The position numbers and the translations under genes were made by a program. The notes beneath the pieces are model-generated. The model saw nothing but the letters and a program-made list of their open reading frames with translations. It ran no database searches and was not told the DNA's origin. This document shows, piece after piece, positions 3,016 to 20,130 of a DNA stretch of 22,886 nt (within the stretch, counting starts at the first letter, position 1; the number at the start of each line of letters is the position of its first letter). The stretch lies in IMG/VR virus record IMGVR_UViG_3300031658_000142, positions 1-22,886 of that record, one strand, 5' to 3'. The DNA comes from a virus.

Positions 3016-4430
3016 ATGATTGCCTGGATTTTCCCCCACCCCCACCCCCATACCCATACCAAGAAACACCCACTATTCGCCAGCTTTGCGCTATTGATTC
3101 AGAGCAAAACATTATCGGCACAATTTTACTCAAACCTGAAAAGCTGCTCGATGTGCCAGAGCTAAGATCAATCGATTTTTTCGACAATCAAAACGCAATG
3201 ATTTTTGACGCAATGATCGCAATCTCGGAAGCTAACAAACCTATCGACGTTGTAATTGTCGCTGAGTATTTCGAGAGACGGGGGCAGCTAGAAAATATCG
3301 GCGGCATGGGTTACATGATTGATCTTGTTAAAAACCTTGCAAGCTCACGGAATATTTTAGCTCACACGAAATTAGTAACTGACAGAGCAAAAGAACGTCG
3401 GTTAGTGCAGGCCGCACAGGATATTCAAGAGGCGATCTATCAAGACGGCGAGCTTGGCACCGAGGAAAGGCTAAGCAATGCTGAGGCCATTTTTACAGCC
3501 GCTAACGTGTCGATTGAATCTACCGCAGAGGTCGTTGAAATGAATACGGCGGTTAAGGATTACATTGAATATTTAAGCTGGCGTTTTGAGAACGAAGGCA
3601 TTCACGGCGTAAAAACTGGATTTGAAAAGATCGACGAAAGGTTGCAAGGATTGAAGGGCGGCGAAATGTACATAATTGCAGCTCGCCCAGGCATGGGAAA
3701 AACAACCTACGCTACCAATATTCTAGCTAACGCTTGCCGACAAGGTGTGAAAGCTTATTTCTCAAGTTTGGAAATGCCGCGCAATCAGTTAGTACAGCGA
3801 ATGATAGCCAGCACCGGAAATATTAACCTTTCAAAACTTAAGGACGCGAGCATCTTGGCATGTAGTCACGAAAGCGCAAAGCTAACCGTTTCGATTTCTT
3901 TAGTCAAGGATATGAACGTGGCAATTGACGACCAAGGCGGCGTTGACATAGCTGATATTCGCAGCCGATGCCGCGCAAAATTCCGAAAGGGTGGTCTTGA
4001 TATTCTGCTGATTGATTACCTACAGCTCATTGAAGATCGCACCGCCAAAAGCCGATTCGAGGTTGTTTCTAGCGTATCGCGAAAGCTTAAAGCGCTGGCT
4101 AAAGAGCTTGATATTCCTGTTGTCGCCTTGTCGCAGCTATCTAGAAAGCTAGAAGAGCGCCCAGATAAGCGGCCAATTATGTCAGACCTTCGAGAGTCAG
4201 GGCAAATTGAGCAGGATGCCGACGTTATTCAATTTCTTTTTCGCGATGAAGTTTACAACGAGGACAGCAATAAAAAAGGGATTTGCGAGGTTATCACATC
4301 AAAGTTTCGCGATGGTGAAACGGGCACTGATTACGTGGCATTTTTTGGCGCACAGAATCGCATGGCTGATTTAGCGCACGAATACACCCCGCCGGTAGAC
4401 GAGCAGAAAACCAAAAAGAAGGGCTTTTAG
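3012..4430 (+). CDS. dnaB: Replicative DNA helicase, DnaB family
   Basis: This is a hexameric 5'-3' helicase that unwinds the phage replication fork. I chose the ATG at 3012 because it overlaps the upstream stop (ATGA). That gives 472 residues, the normal size for DnaB. A Pro-rich N-terminus (six consecutive Pro near residues 8-13) precedes the DnaB N-terminal domain (about 20-130). The RecA-like domain shows Walker A ARPGMGKTT (about 224-232), Walker B LLIDY (about 332-336), a SQLSRKLEERPDKRP segment and the DLRESGQIEQDADVI motif near 392-406. All expected ATPase motifs are intact. It follows the O-like protein without a gap, so the phage brings its own helicase rather than only a loader. 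No intein is present. Confidence 0.95.
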   Translation: MNDCLDFPPPPPPYPYQETPTIRQLCAIDSEQNIIGTILLKPEKLLDVPELRSIDFFDNQNAMIFDAMIAISEANKPIDVVIVAEYFERRGQLENIGGMGYMIDLVKNLASSRNILAHTKLVTDRAKERRLVQAAQDIQEAIYQDGELGTEERLSNAEAIFTAANVSIESTAEVVEMNTAVKDYIEYLSWRFENEGIHGVKTGFEKIDERLQGLKGGEMYIIAARPGMGKTTYATNILANACRQGVKAYFSSLEMPRNQLVQRMIASTGNINLSKLKDASILACSHESAKLTVSISLVKDMNVAIDDQGGVDIADIRSRCRAKFRKGGLDILLIDYLQLIEDRTAKSRFEVVSSVSRKLKALAKELDIPVVALSQLSRKLEERPDKRPIMSDLRESGQIEQDADVIQFLFRDEVYNEDSNKKGICEVITSKFRDGETGTDYVAFFGAQNRMADLAHEYTPPVDEQKTKKKGF

Positions 4431-9433: not shown

Positions 9434-9462
9434 CTGACACAGCATGACTTTTAGGATATAAT
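9434..9462 (+). promoter_or_regulatory. Near-consensus sigma70 promoter at the early/late boundary
   Basis: CTGACA (9434-9439), a 17-base spacer and TATAAT (9457-9462) lie just after ssb and upstream of the lysis and structural genes. The position corresponds to lambda pR'. RNA would start near 9469, inside the 5' arm of the terminator-like hairpin at 9466-9498. The string GATATAATAAG at the -10 recurs at the portal promoter. Confidence 0.65.
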
Positions 9463-9465
9463 AAG

Positions 9466-9502
9466 CTGTGCATAGGATATGTATAACCCTGTGCACAGTT
9501 TT
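9466..9502 (+). terminator. Terminator-like hairpin after the early operon
   Basis: CTGTGCA (9466-9472) can pair with TGCACAG (9492-9498), followed by TTTTATT. The loop is about 19 bases. It would end transcription coming from ssb. RNA initiated at the promoter just upstream would lack the first bases of the 5' arm and so form a weaker hairpin. The 3' arm is itself part of a 10-base palindrome, CTGTGCACAG (9489-9498). Confidence 0.5.
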
Positions 9503-9538
9503 ATTAAAAATAAATTATAGCACAGAAAACGGTCTAAC

Positions 9539-16995: not shown

Positions 16996-18003
16996 ATGGC
17001 AACGCAAAGCTATATTATAAACGAGATCACAAACCGCGAGATTGATACTATACGCGCGGCTAATGGCACGTCTCAAAGAGCATCAAGCGGGCTAAAGGAT
17101 TTATACGAGCTAATACAAAAGAAGATCGCCAAAGCGCCCACAAGCCGTTTATATCGCCTCTCGAATGAGATTGAAAAGCTTATGAAAGAGGAAATGACCC
17201 GCGCTGCAATAATCATTCAATCAGACCTAGCCGAGCTATCAGCAATTGAGGCAAGATTTGCAGAGCAGCTATTAGTTACCGCGACGACTATCAAAAGCAT
17301 TGATCGAACACCGGCATCGATACTGAAAACCTTTGCCAACTCACCAATCAAAAATTTTATCACCGGTAACGAAGTCACTAAGCCAACTGTAAACGACTTG
17401 CTCAAAAAGTTAGGCAATACTAACGCTCGACAAGTGCGCAACATTATTCGCGACGCTAGCTTAAACGGCCGCACAGCTAATGAGATCACAGATGAAATTC
17501 AGGCGCTAGTAATCAATAAGAACCGTAACGATATTGACGCGACAACACTGACAGCTTTTAATCACGTCAGCAATCAATCGAAAATGGGCGTATACCAAAG
17601 CAATGCTGATATTTTAGATGGTATGCGAATTGTTGCGACACTAGACAGCCGTACATCGATTACTTGCATGGGCTTAGATGGTAAAATAATTCCACTCGAT
17701 AGCACTCAAGCGCCGCCGTTTCATTACCGGTGCAGATCACAGCTTGTGCCAGTGGTAGCCAAAGATTTAAGACTTGATATACCAGGAAGACAACGAGCGT
17801 CAGAAGATGGGCCCGTGGATGCCTCGCTTACATACGACGGATTTCTACGCAAGCAGAGCAAAGAGCGTCAAATAGAGATACTTGGCGCATCTAGAACAAG
17901 GCTATTCAGAAAGGGCGTTAGCATCAAACGATTTACTAATAATTCGGGCGTAGTGCTAACGATTAAGCAGCTAGAGGCCAAGATGCCGAATGAGTTCAAC
18001 TAA
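16996..18003 (+). CDS. MuF/SPP1 gp7-like minor head protein
   Basis: This 335-residue protein has the MuF (Phage_Mu_F, gp7) domain near its C-terminus: RIVATLDSRTSITCMGLDGK, then FHYRCRSQLVPV (about 211-254), including the conserved C224, H243, C246 and R247. The N-terminal 200 residues are mainly helical. Family members bind the portal and enter the prohead, helping DNA ejection or head maturation. A strong AGGGGG ribosome binding site precedes the ATG. In many phages this gene follows the portal, but here it comes before it, separated by two small ORFs. The domain call is firm. Confidence 0.9.
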   Translation: MATQSYIINEITNREIDTIRAANGTSQRASSGLKDLYELIQKKIAKAPTSRLYRLSNEIEKLMKEEMTRAAIIIQSDLAELSAIEARFAEQLLVTATTIKSIDRTPASILKTFANSPIKNFITGNEVTKPTVNDLLKKLGNTNARQVRNIIRDASLNGRTANEITDEIQALVINKNRNDIDATTLTAFNHVSNQSKMGVYQSNADILDGMRIVATLDSRTSITCMGLDGKIIPLDSTQAPPFHYRCRSQLVPVVAKDLRLDIPGRQRASEDGPVDASLTYDGFLRKQSKERQIEILGASRTRLFRKGVSIKRFTNNSGVVLTIKQLEAKMPNEFN

Positions 18004-18090
18004 GAGAGGTTTATCAAGATGCCTAGTTAAATCAGAAAAAAATCAATTCCGGATAAGTTTAACCAACCAACCAACTAAAAGGCAACAAAA

Positions 18091-18342
18091 ATGAATCAAA
18101 TGAATTTTATAGTAAAGGCTTACAGCTCGTCTAACAGTGGAGTTAGGAATATAGAGTTTCACGCTTGTTCGAATATTCATGTCGAATGGGGCGTTGACGA
18201 CAGCGTAATTCTTTCTGCTGAAAGCAGAAATTCACCGGAGGGCGCTACAATTTTTTCCATGAGCAACAAAAGCGATAGCAGGTTTGACGAAATAATTATT
18301 GAAAATATGAACGGAAAGACAGTGCATAGGTGGGTGCAATAG
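18091..18342 (+). CDS. Hypothetical small protein inserted between minor head and portal genes
   Basis: This 83-residue protein starts at an ATG preceded by AAAAGG. It has a beta-rich look (NFIVKAYSSSNSGVRNIEFH, then IHVEWGVDDSVILSAESRN) and ends in HRWVQ. I do not recognise a family. It and the next ORF have separate ribosome binding sites and gaps on both sides, unlike the overlapping head genes, and are followed by a terminator. That is the arrangement of a moron (an accessory gene inserted in a late operon). The 87-base gap upstream (18004-18090) holds an AACC simple repeat but no convincing promoter. Confidence 0.55.
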   Translation: MNQMNFIVKAYSSSNSGVRNIEFHACSNIHVEWGVDDSVILSAESRNSPEGATIFSMSNKSDSRFDEIIIENMNGKTVHRWVQ

Positions 18343-18382
18343 CAAAAATAACTAATTAATTCAACTAAGATAGGGTTATGTG

Positions 18383-18643
18383 ATGGGTGAAGTAGTAAGC
18401 ATTAAGAAGGAAAACAAAGGCTATAATATTGTTGACGAAAAGGTAAGCGGCGTATTTGTGGAGAATATTGTTGCTATTATTTCTGATGACAAGATAGATG
18501 TTTTAATCGGTGAGAAATGTGACGAAGGGATAGAAAACCCTTTACAGGTATCAATGAAGGATATGAACGAGTTTTGTTTGATGTGGCTTCTTATATTTAA
18601 TGAAAGCGTTATAAAAGAGGACTATCTAGATCAACCCACCTAA
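18383..18643 (+). CDS. Hypothetical small acidic protein, second ORF of the insert
   Basis: I chose the ATG at 18383, seven bases after AGGG; a GTG directly before it (18380) is a less likely alternative. The product has 86 residues, is acidic, and alternates short beta strands (EVVSIKKENKGYNIV, VSGVFVENIVAIISDDKIDV) before a C-terminal helix (DMNEFCLMWLLIFNESVIKE at about 61-80). No family is recognised. It ends 21 bases before a terminator hairpin. Together with the preceding ORF it forms a probable accessory insert. Confidence 0.55.
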   Translation: MGEVVSIKKENKGYNIVDEKVSGVFVENIVAIISDDKIDVLIGEKCDEGIENPLQVSMKDMNEFCLMWLLIFNESVIKEDYLDQPT

Positions 18644-18651
18644 TAGCTTTT

Positions 18652-18680
18652 TTCTATTAACAATCCCTATGTGATATAAT
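18652..18680 (+). promoter_or_regulatory. Extended -10 promoter for the portal gene
   Basis: TGA-TATAAT (18672-18680) is an extended -10; the -35 region (18652-18657, TTCTAT) is weak. RNA would start near 18687, about 22 bases before the portal ATG and inside the hairpin loop. The 11-base string GATATAATAAG is identical to that at the 9434-9462 promoter. Confidence 0.5.
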
Positions 18681-18707
18681 AAGACAATAACTCACACAGG
18701 GCTTTTT
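18665..18707 (+). terminator. Terminator hairpin that also holds the portal ribosome binding site
   Basis: CCCTATGTGA (18665-18674) pairs with TCACACAGGG (18692-18701) at nine of ten positions and is followed by CTTTTT. The AGGG at 18698-18701 is the only ribosome binding site for the portal ATG at 18709 (spacing seven), so it lies in the 3' arm of the stem. Read-through RNA would terminate or hide it; RNA from the loop promoter would not. Confidence 0.65.
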
Positions 18708-18708
18708 A

Positions 18709-20094
18709 ATGTCAATTACCGATCTAAATCCGCAATACACCGACGGCATGAAAGCAGTAAAGCGCTGTCGTGATGTGTTCAAGGGTCAGTCAGCAATCCA
18801 AAAAATCAACGGCAGCGGCGTTACCGATTATTTCCCGATGCACGTACCTGAAGACAAAGAGCGTTATGCTCGGGTGATCGCCCTTTCATCTTTCACGAAT
18901 TACACCGGGCACACTGTCAATAAGCTTGTTGGCGCGGCATTCAATGAAGAGCCCACAACTAATCTTTCTGATAACTCAGCAATGGCTTATATGATCGAGG
19001 ACTGTGACGGCGGCGGCGGTGATCTTGAGCAGCTAGCAACCAGCGCAGTATTAGATAATACAATTGCCGGCCGCCTTGGATTGCTTGTTAATTTTCCCGT
19101 TACCAATGGCAAGGTTCACTCTAAAGAAGATGTTAAGCGGCTAAATCTTCGAGCGTCTATTCACCGATACCCCGCTGAATCAATACCGAATTGGGGAGTC
19201 GTAAACGGCCAGCTATCATACGTCGTGTTACTAGAAGATAAACGTGACATGTCACAAGATATGTTTTCTCATCAATCGACAGTTGGTCACCGTGTTTACT
19301 ATATTGCAGAAGACGGCTTTTGTTATCAGCAATTTGTTGAAGATGGTAAAGAGTTTTTAGCGGAAGGCGGTCAAATGGTGCTGGATTACAACGGGGCAGG
19401 ATTTGCACAAATACCAATGATAATTATTGGCTCTGTCGATAACTCGGCTAGCGTCGATAAACCGCCTATCTCTGCAATGGCGGATGTAAATATCTCACAC
19501 TATCAGATCAGCGTGCTAGAGAGCGAAAACCTGGCGATACATGGTCAAATGACGTTAGGCGTAACCTCAGATTTATCAGTAGCAGAATGGAACACAGCAA
19601 ACCCTGAAGGCGTAAAAGTAGGCGCAAATAGCGGTTACTTTCTTGGCTCAAAAGGCGGTTTTCACACAGCAACGGCCCCAGAATCCAGCGCATTGCCAGC
19701 GGCCAAAGAGGCCAAGGTTAGAGAAATGGAAGCTTTAGGCGCAAGTCTAATCGACAAGAACGCGACAGCCAAAACAGCAACAGAGGCAGGCATTAACGCG
19801 AAAGAGCAGACCAGCATAATGATGAACGTTGTTAACAATGTATCGGACGCTATTGAGAAATGTTTAGAGTGGGCTGAAATGATGACAGTTGCTAAACCCC
19901 AAGGCGATTTTGAGTACAGAATTAATACTGAATTTTACGACAGCACGATTAGCCCTGATCTATTCACAGCAGCACTAGGTGCAGTTGACCGCAGTATGTT
20001 TGATCAGAACGCTCAACAGCAGCTTTTAGAACAAACATTCCCAACCATACTTTTCAATGAAAATTCTGTCATAGCAGCAGAAGAGGCGCTTTAA
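18709..20094 (+). CDS. Portal protein, DUF4055 type
   Basis: This 461-residue protein fits the DUF4055 family of portal proteins, which form the dodecameric ring at the head vertex through which DNA passes. The N-terminal region begins with KRCRDVFKGQSAIQKINGSG. The central block QIPMIIIGSVDNSASVDKPP followed by ISAMADVNISHYQISVLESE (about 236-276) is the family signature. A long helical clip/stem region (about 325-390, rich in Ala and Glu) follows. The frame is intact. Neighbours (terminase and MuF upstream; scaffold and capsid downstream) confirm the role. Translation may depend on the promoter inside the upstream hairpin. A copy of a palindrome from the cro region lies within the gene at 19244-19255. 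Confidence 0.88.
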   Translation: MSITDLNPQYTDGMKAVKRCRDVFKGQSAIQKINGSGVTDYFPMHVPEDKERYARVIALSSFTNYTGHTVNKLVGAAFNEEPTTNLSDNSAMAYMIEDCDGGGGDLEQLATSAVLDNTIAGRLGLLVNFPVTNGKVHSKEDVKRLNLRASIHRYPAESIPNWGVVNGQLSYVVLLEDKRDMSQDMFSHQSTVGHRVYYIAEDGFCYQQFVEDGKEFLAEGGQMVLDYNGAGFAQIPMIIIGSVDNSASVDKPPISAMADVNISHYQISVLESENLAIHGQMTLGVTSDLSVAEWNTANPEGVKVGANSGYFLGSKGGFHTATAPESSALPAAKEAKVREMEALGASLIDKNATAKTATEAGINAKEQTSIMMNVVNNVSDAIEKCLEWAEMMTVAKPQGDFEYRINTEFYDSTISPDLFTAALGAVDRSMFDQNAQQQLLEQTFPTILFNENSVIAAEEAL

Positions 20095-20123
20095 TTGCCT
20101 AGTCATAATCATAATGTTATAAT
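20095..20123 (+). promoter_or_regulatory. Promoter of the scaffold-capsid unit
   Basis: TTGCCT (20095-20100), a 17-base spacer and TGT-TATAAT (20115-20123, extended -10) start right at the end of the portal gene. RNA would start near 20130, about 50 bases before the scaffold ATG. The -10 lies inside a perfect 17-base palindrome. Confidence 0.6.
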
Positions 20124-20130
20124 ATAACAT
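20114..20130. promoter_or_regulatory. 17-bp perfect palindrome over the scaffold promoter -10 (possible operator)
   Basis: ATGTTATA-A-TATAACAT has eight perfectly matched bases on each side of a central A. It covers the whole -10 and the start region of the promoter. A dimeric regulator bound here would block transcription; none is identified. Confidence 0.45.

Follow-up and report, generated by a model that had tools for sequence, protein, structure and literature searches.

The stretch analysed (the window) is the complete IMG/VR record IMGVR_UViG_3300031658_000142, 22,886 bases long, and comes from a tailed phage to which no close relative is known. In the packaging region TerS, TerL, MuF-like head protein and two small ORFs precede the portal gene, in that order, and scaffold and major capsid follow it. 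The ORF directly before the portal gene gave no match in the family search and a single phage match (49% identity), L248:2521-2760, which in Vibrio phage 1.177.O occupies the slot before the portal. The best portal match was 35% identical, in Oceanospirillum phage GJ44. Positions 16996-20094 run TerL, MuF, two small ORFs, portal and scaffold, and GJ44 has TerL, portal, MuF, so that MuF and portal are swapped relative to GJ44, whose TerL is 67% identical to that of the phage studied here.

The original prediction had placed an extended -10 promoter across the 5' arm and loop of a hairpin that hides the portal Shine-Dalgarno (SD) site and is followed by a T run. All of these features were found on direct reading of the 65-nt gap before the portal gene (Table 1). 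The two arms pair at 9 of 10 positions, with one A.C mismatch, around a loop of 17 nt, and the hairpin alone folds at -8.8 kcal/mol. AGGG forms the distal part of the 3' arm. The motif TGATATAAT starts within the 5' arm and finishes within the loop (-10 hexamer 18675-18680), and scores 6/6 as an extended -10, that is, TGn then a near-consensus -10; the extended -10 TGATATAATAAG is of host type. The leader from the predicted +1 is 22 nt.

Table 1. Features at the portal gene start, with positions in the window
Feature	Coordinates	Strand	Basis and remarks
Upstream ORF, 86-87 aa	18383..18643	+	stop 65 nt 5' of portal ATG
Hairpin 5' arm CCCTATGTGA	18665..18674	+	sequence, fold; A18669 opposite C is the sole mismatch
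Extended -10 promoter TGATATAAT	18672..18680	+	sequence; no recognisable -35
Predicted transcription start (+1), A, in hairpin loop	18687	+	inferred: 7 nt past the -10 hexamer
Hairpin 3' arm TCACACAGGG, includes SD	18692..18701	+	sequence, fold
Portal Shine-Dalgarno AGGG	18698..18701	+	sequence; 7 nt from ATG 18709
T run after hairpin, in CTTTTTA	18703..18707	+	sequence; absent from terminator scan list
Portal protein gene, 461 aa	18709..20094	+	phrog_145, E 2.7e-85; DUF4055

Elsewhere in the window, TTGCCT-17-TATAAT with TG overlaps the perfect dyad TGTTATA-A-TATAACA 5' of the scaffold gene (20095-20126). Nested dyads, CACAGC..GCTGTG and CTGTGCATAGG..CCCTGTGCACAG, lie 3' of the SSB gene (9437-9505) and are followed by TTTTATT; TATAAT at 9457 stands between the dyad arms, and the site may be another promoter-terminator overlap.

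Dyads of equal quality numbered 20 in the window and 16 in shuffles, and TGNTATAAT was present in three copies against 1.6 expected; with both counts near chance, neither component is remarkable by itself. The local fold (18660-18708) was mildly unusual at z = -2.8, with 1.2% of shuffles equally stable, and the fold of the entire pre-portal gap z = -1.7 only. The combined score, which was composed after the first examples had been seen and fits the studied element, was reached by none of the 3000 shuffled versions of the 90 nt 5' of the portal gene. Any such combined element was carried by 0.4% of shuffles, and the portal start was the sole combined element among the 28 gene starts tested in the window. 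A chance origin was rejected for the combination (0/3000), not for the dyad alone. Because the scoring was devised with this element in view, the shuffle test alone is weak, and the argument is carried by the comparison with relatives.

Predicted SD accessibility was compared between RNA reading through from upstream and RNA beginning at 18687. The probability that the SD is free was 0.015 in the former and 0.48 in the latter, and the cost of opening it 6.6 and 1.9 kcal/mol, respectively, which supports the claim that the hairpin covers the portal SD. Across 13 folded elements, the studied one included, the predicted free fraction of the SD did not exceed 1.5% in read-through RNA and was higher in own-start RNA. 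Partial re-pairing left the SD mostly paired even in own-start RNA of L248, L254 and L306 (probability free 0.04 in L248 and 0.006 in L306). GJ44, which has the promoter without the mask, gave no contrast in SD access between the two RNAs. Translational coupling from the upstream ORF was also considered; its stop at 18643 is 22 nt 5' of the hairpin, a distance at which a terminating ribosome would probably not unfold the stem, so coupling is unlikely.

Direct conservation was sought at several levels. The studied hairpin had no DNA match among phages, the exact hairpin search returned no match, no close portal relative was found in viral contigs, and nothing matched in Rfam. With the nearest portal only 35% identical, the hairpin could not be aligned to a homologue, and it was therefore asked whether the design recurs.

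A non-redundant set of 28 portal genes of the same family, each separated from the preceding gene (gapped), was used for this comparison. Of these, 15 had an extended -10 upstream, compared with 60 of the 930 other genes that were likewise gapped (p = 1e-10); a small number of the 28 portal starts are likely miscalls, an error that tends to lower the enrichment. Nearly all of these motifs lie at -30 to -37 from the ATG (-34 in both the studied phage and GJ44). Enrichment at a near-constant position indicates that portal genes share a specific promoter whose leader is about 22 nt long. The predicted promoter of the studied phage thus gains support from its type and position, both of which recur 5' of the portals of distant relatives. 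The mask is optional, since GJ44 lacks it and at most gapped portals the promoter stands alone.

The full design was defined as a hairpin over the SD with a -10 placed so that +1 falls inside the hairpin. Six of the 28 gapped portals carried it, as did 7 of the 1416 genes of other kinds (p = 5e-8). The best recurrences were portals of two Vibrio phage clades (1.177.O/jenny 12G5/K68 and 1.047.O/BUCT006), which may share one ancestral element, so that the counts are not all independent. In 1.177.O, jenny 12G5 and F89 the element reads TTGCTAAAAT-GGCCTCATA-tcaac-TATGAGGC-TTTTTT-ATG, and in 1.047.O and others TTTGCTACAAT-AGCCTCATT-aatgac-AATGAGGC-TTTTTT-ATG; the arms are CCTCTAT/ATAGAGG in K68 and GCCCTATA/TATAGGGC in BUCT006. 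Two-sided changes were counted in 5 of 8 pairs of the Vibrio stems, with 100% pairing and 0 of 500 shuffles matching, on hand-set arms with loops replaced by N (MAFFT had displaced two rows), a procedure that biases the count towards pairing. The L193 portal has the design with another sequence, ACACCGTTATA/TATAACGGTGT with TATACT inside, followed by only CTTT. In L010/L013 the arms ATCAATCC/GGATTGAT mask the SD and a T run is absent; in L254 the T run is broken and the stem lengthened. The promoter-in-hairpin design of the original prediction is therefore upheld by recurrence in unrelated sequence and by compensatory changes in the Vibrio forms. The parts of the module, their spacing, this recurrence and the Vibrio changes are apparent from sequence and comparison, and a layout that recurs with different sequence suggests a real and reusable device for expressing a single gene without dependence on those around it.

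Two simpler readings were weighed against these data. The portal may merely have its own extended -10, the hairpin of the studied phage being a chance dyad. The dyad count at chance level in the window and the promoter without mask in GJ44 and most gapped portals agree with this, but the joint arrangement was absent from all 3000 shuffles and the same arrangement stands at portals of other clades; we consider the promoter-only reading unlikely. The dyad could instead be an operator, with TGTGA and TCACA half-sites flanking the -10, for a repressor or a CRP-like protein over the promoter, and L008 has TGTGATCATCTCACA near its portal start. The half-site spacing, however, is 17 in the studied phage and 5 in L008, as against the fixed 6 of CRP, so that a CRP site (TGTGA-N6-TCACA) was rejected. 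The arm sequence is not shared between clades: in others it is entirely different with pairing kept, which fits RNA pairing and not the site of one protein, and an operator is accordingly very improbable.

Another arrangement was observed before the portals of L188, L190 and L197-L204, where TAGTATAAT lies about 50 nt 5' of the ATG and is followed by TTAAGCC..GGCTTAA over the SD. That hairpin is downstream of the expected start and so within the RNA, and represents a different design.

The design was also found outside the portal. In BUCT006 it stands before the MuF gene and dUTPase as well. Viral contigs were searched by DNA pattern, with no homology criterion, using GAGGCTTTTTTATG first and AGGGCTTTTTTATG and AGGGCTTTTTAATG as held-out data. 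The AGGGCTTTTTTATG search returned the portal of L445 (phrog_145) and the MuF genes of L391 and L453, each with the element. Further elements from the pattern searches were located at TerS (L589, L290), PmgG-like head genes (L432, L416), a head protease (L306) and an integrase (L397). For the held-out patterns, the -10 ended 0-2 nt 5' of the 5' arm in 15 of 35 hairpins that open an ORF, compared with 5 of 63 that open none (p = 7e-5). Ordinary terminators served as control, and abutment of the -10 was concentrated in ORF-opening hairpins; across all loci collected by then, 20% of the terminators that open a gene, as against 1.8% of the rest, had a -10 ending exactly 1 nt before the 5' arm.

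An intrinsic (Rho-independent) terminator has a G+C-rich stem, a short loop and at least five T directly after. The element resembles this in having a stem and then a T run, and the Vibrio forms match very well (8-9 bp stem, 4-7 nt loop, T6). It differs in that the 3' arm is the SD, the T run is the spacer between SD and ATG, and a promoter lies inside. The studied hairpin departs further, with its 17-nt loop, A.C mismatch and CTTTTT, in which T5 follows an unpaired C; it was not listed by the terminator scan, for which the loop is too long. From these sequences, elements with a good loop and T run, such as the Vibrio forms, are likely to terminate transcription, and termination is predicted to be weak or absent in the studied phage, L193, L010/L013 and L254. 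The original prediction had also called the hairpin a terminator; with that half weak in the studied phage, we favour SD masking of read-through RNA with escape by internal start, termination being a possible extra.

Terminators after TerL or cargo genes (L260:250-285, L263:140-180, L006:2235-2275) have -10-like hexamers filling the loop, as in ACCCTC-TAAACT-GAGGGT-TTTT. These may be promoters in terminator loops or merely A+T-rich loops.

The element could also be a compact terminator with a restart promoter, the SD lying in the 3' arm for lack of space and masking having no role. The textbook terminators of the Vibrio forms and the abutment of -10s on gene-opening terminators agree with this reading, and the TerL-portal slot of otherwise related Vibrio phages (L248, L254-L268) holds variable cargo (lipocalin-like, PAPS reductase, DNA methylase, YopX-like and unknown genes) that would favour insulation. 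Against it stand the 17-nt loop, the mismatched stem and the lack of a called terminator in the studied phage, the CTTT of L193, the missing T run of L010/L013, and the broken T run and longer stem of L254. We regard a terminator and promoter without masking as improbable. SD masking with internal start is the common denominator of the elements, and a self-exempting gene-start module is the best explanation, one that we hold to be rather probable.

Phage morons are extra genes with their own promoter and terminator. The variable genes that separate TerL from portal in the related Vibrio phages are like moron cassettes, but here the signal is part of the core gene that follows and not of the cargo itself. 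A closer parallel is found in T4, where I-TevI, e, soc and segB, like Aeh1 mobE, are hairpin-silenced late genes: the SD is hidden by a hairpin in early RNA, and the late promoter lies at a point from which late RNA is made without the hairpin (PMC2988022). The comparison with T4 drawn in the original prediction was thus right (PMC2988022). In both cases the SD is paired in RNA from upstream (here by prediction, as above), and RNA from the local promoter lacks the 5' arm, here by sequence with +1 predicted at about 18687. The T4 genes use the T4 late promoter (TATAAATA type, gp55-dependent), whereas the studied element has a host-type extended -10; upstream RNA is early or middle in T4 and comes from packaging and accessory genes here. 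Unlike the T4 genes, the Vibrio forms add an intrinsic terminator, with the T run leading straight into the ATG. Because its promoter is host-type and not T4 late, the element works like the T4 genes without being classed among them. The masking principle is already known from T4; the promoter class, the terminator fusion and the setting at portal and head genes differ. No report of a promoter inside a terminator or SD hairpin outside T4 was found in the literature covered, chiefly freely accessible papers.

Hairpins in which an SD-covering stem appears to enclose a T4 late promoter of the classic type were seen in L338:9444-10574 and in L396 near 3257-3270. Both have TAAATAC in the loop (GCTaaatacAGC), leading to T6 and ATG; that of L338 stands before a head-tail adaptor-like gene.

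In the mechanism proposed, RNA entering from the upstream genes would have both arms, so that the hairpin folds, the portal SD is hidden and translation is poor. A tight stem, short loop and T6, as in the Vibrio phages, would terminate such RNA as well. RNA from the internal extended -10 would start in the loop at about 18687, without the 5' arm; the hairpin could then not form, and AGGG would be exposed within the 22-nt leader. We infer the start site, masking in vivo and dependence on the promoter. The element would thus act as a compact switch, a promoter inside an SD-hiding hairpin, such that only locally started RNA should be translated. The portal gene would be uncoupled from the variable genes upstream and its level set by its own host-type promoter. 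A module that ignores upstream RNA and restarts may protect the dose of portal protein; the changing cargo of the Vibrio slot, together with the sole match of the 87-aa ORF in that same slot, suggests why it might pay.

Taken more broadly, the element may exemplify a cassette, some 45 nt long and of general use at phage gene starts, that consists of an extended -10, a hairpin whose 3' arm holds the SD, a T-run spacer and the ATG. Such a cassette would stop and silence RNA arriving from upstream, would exempt its own, and would have arisen or spread more than once at genes for head and packaging functions (portal, MuF, TerS, head protease) beside accessory slots; we judge the chances for and against this to be evenly balanced. 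If true, T4 late-gene silencing would not be a peculiarity of T4, and phages with host-type promoters would combine a promoter, a terminator and a ribosome binding site within a single module of 45 nt. This would matter for the annotation of phage promoters and terminators, the same bases being both, and would provide a compact insulator directly testable in E. coli. It would also explain the correct expression of essential head genes while accessory genes change just upstream.
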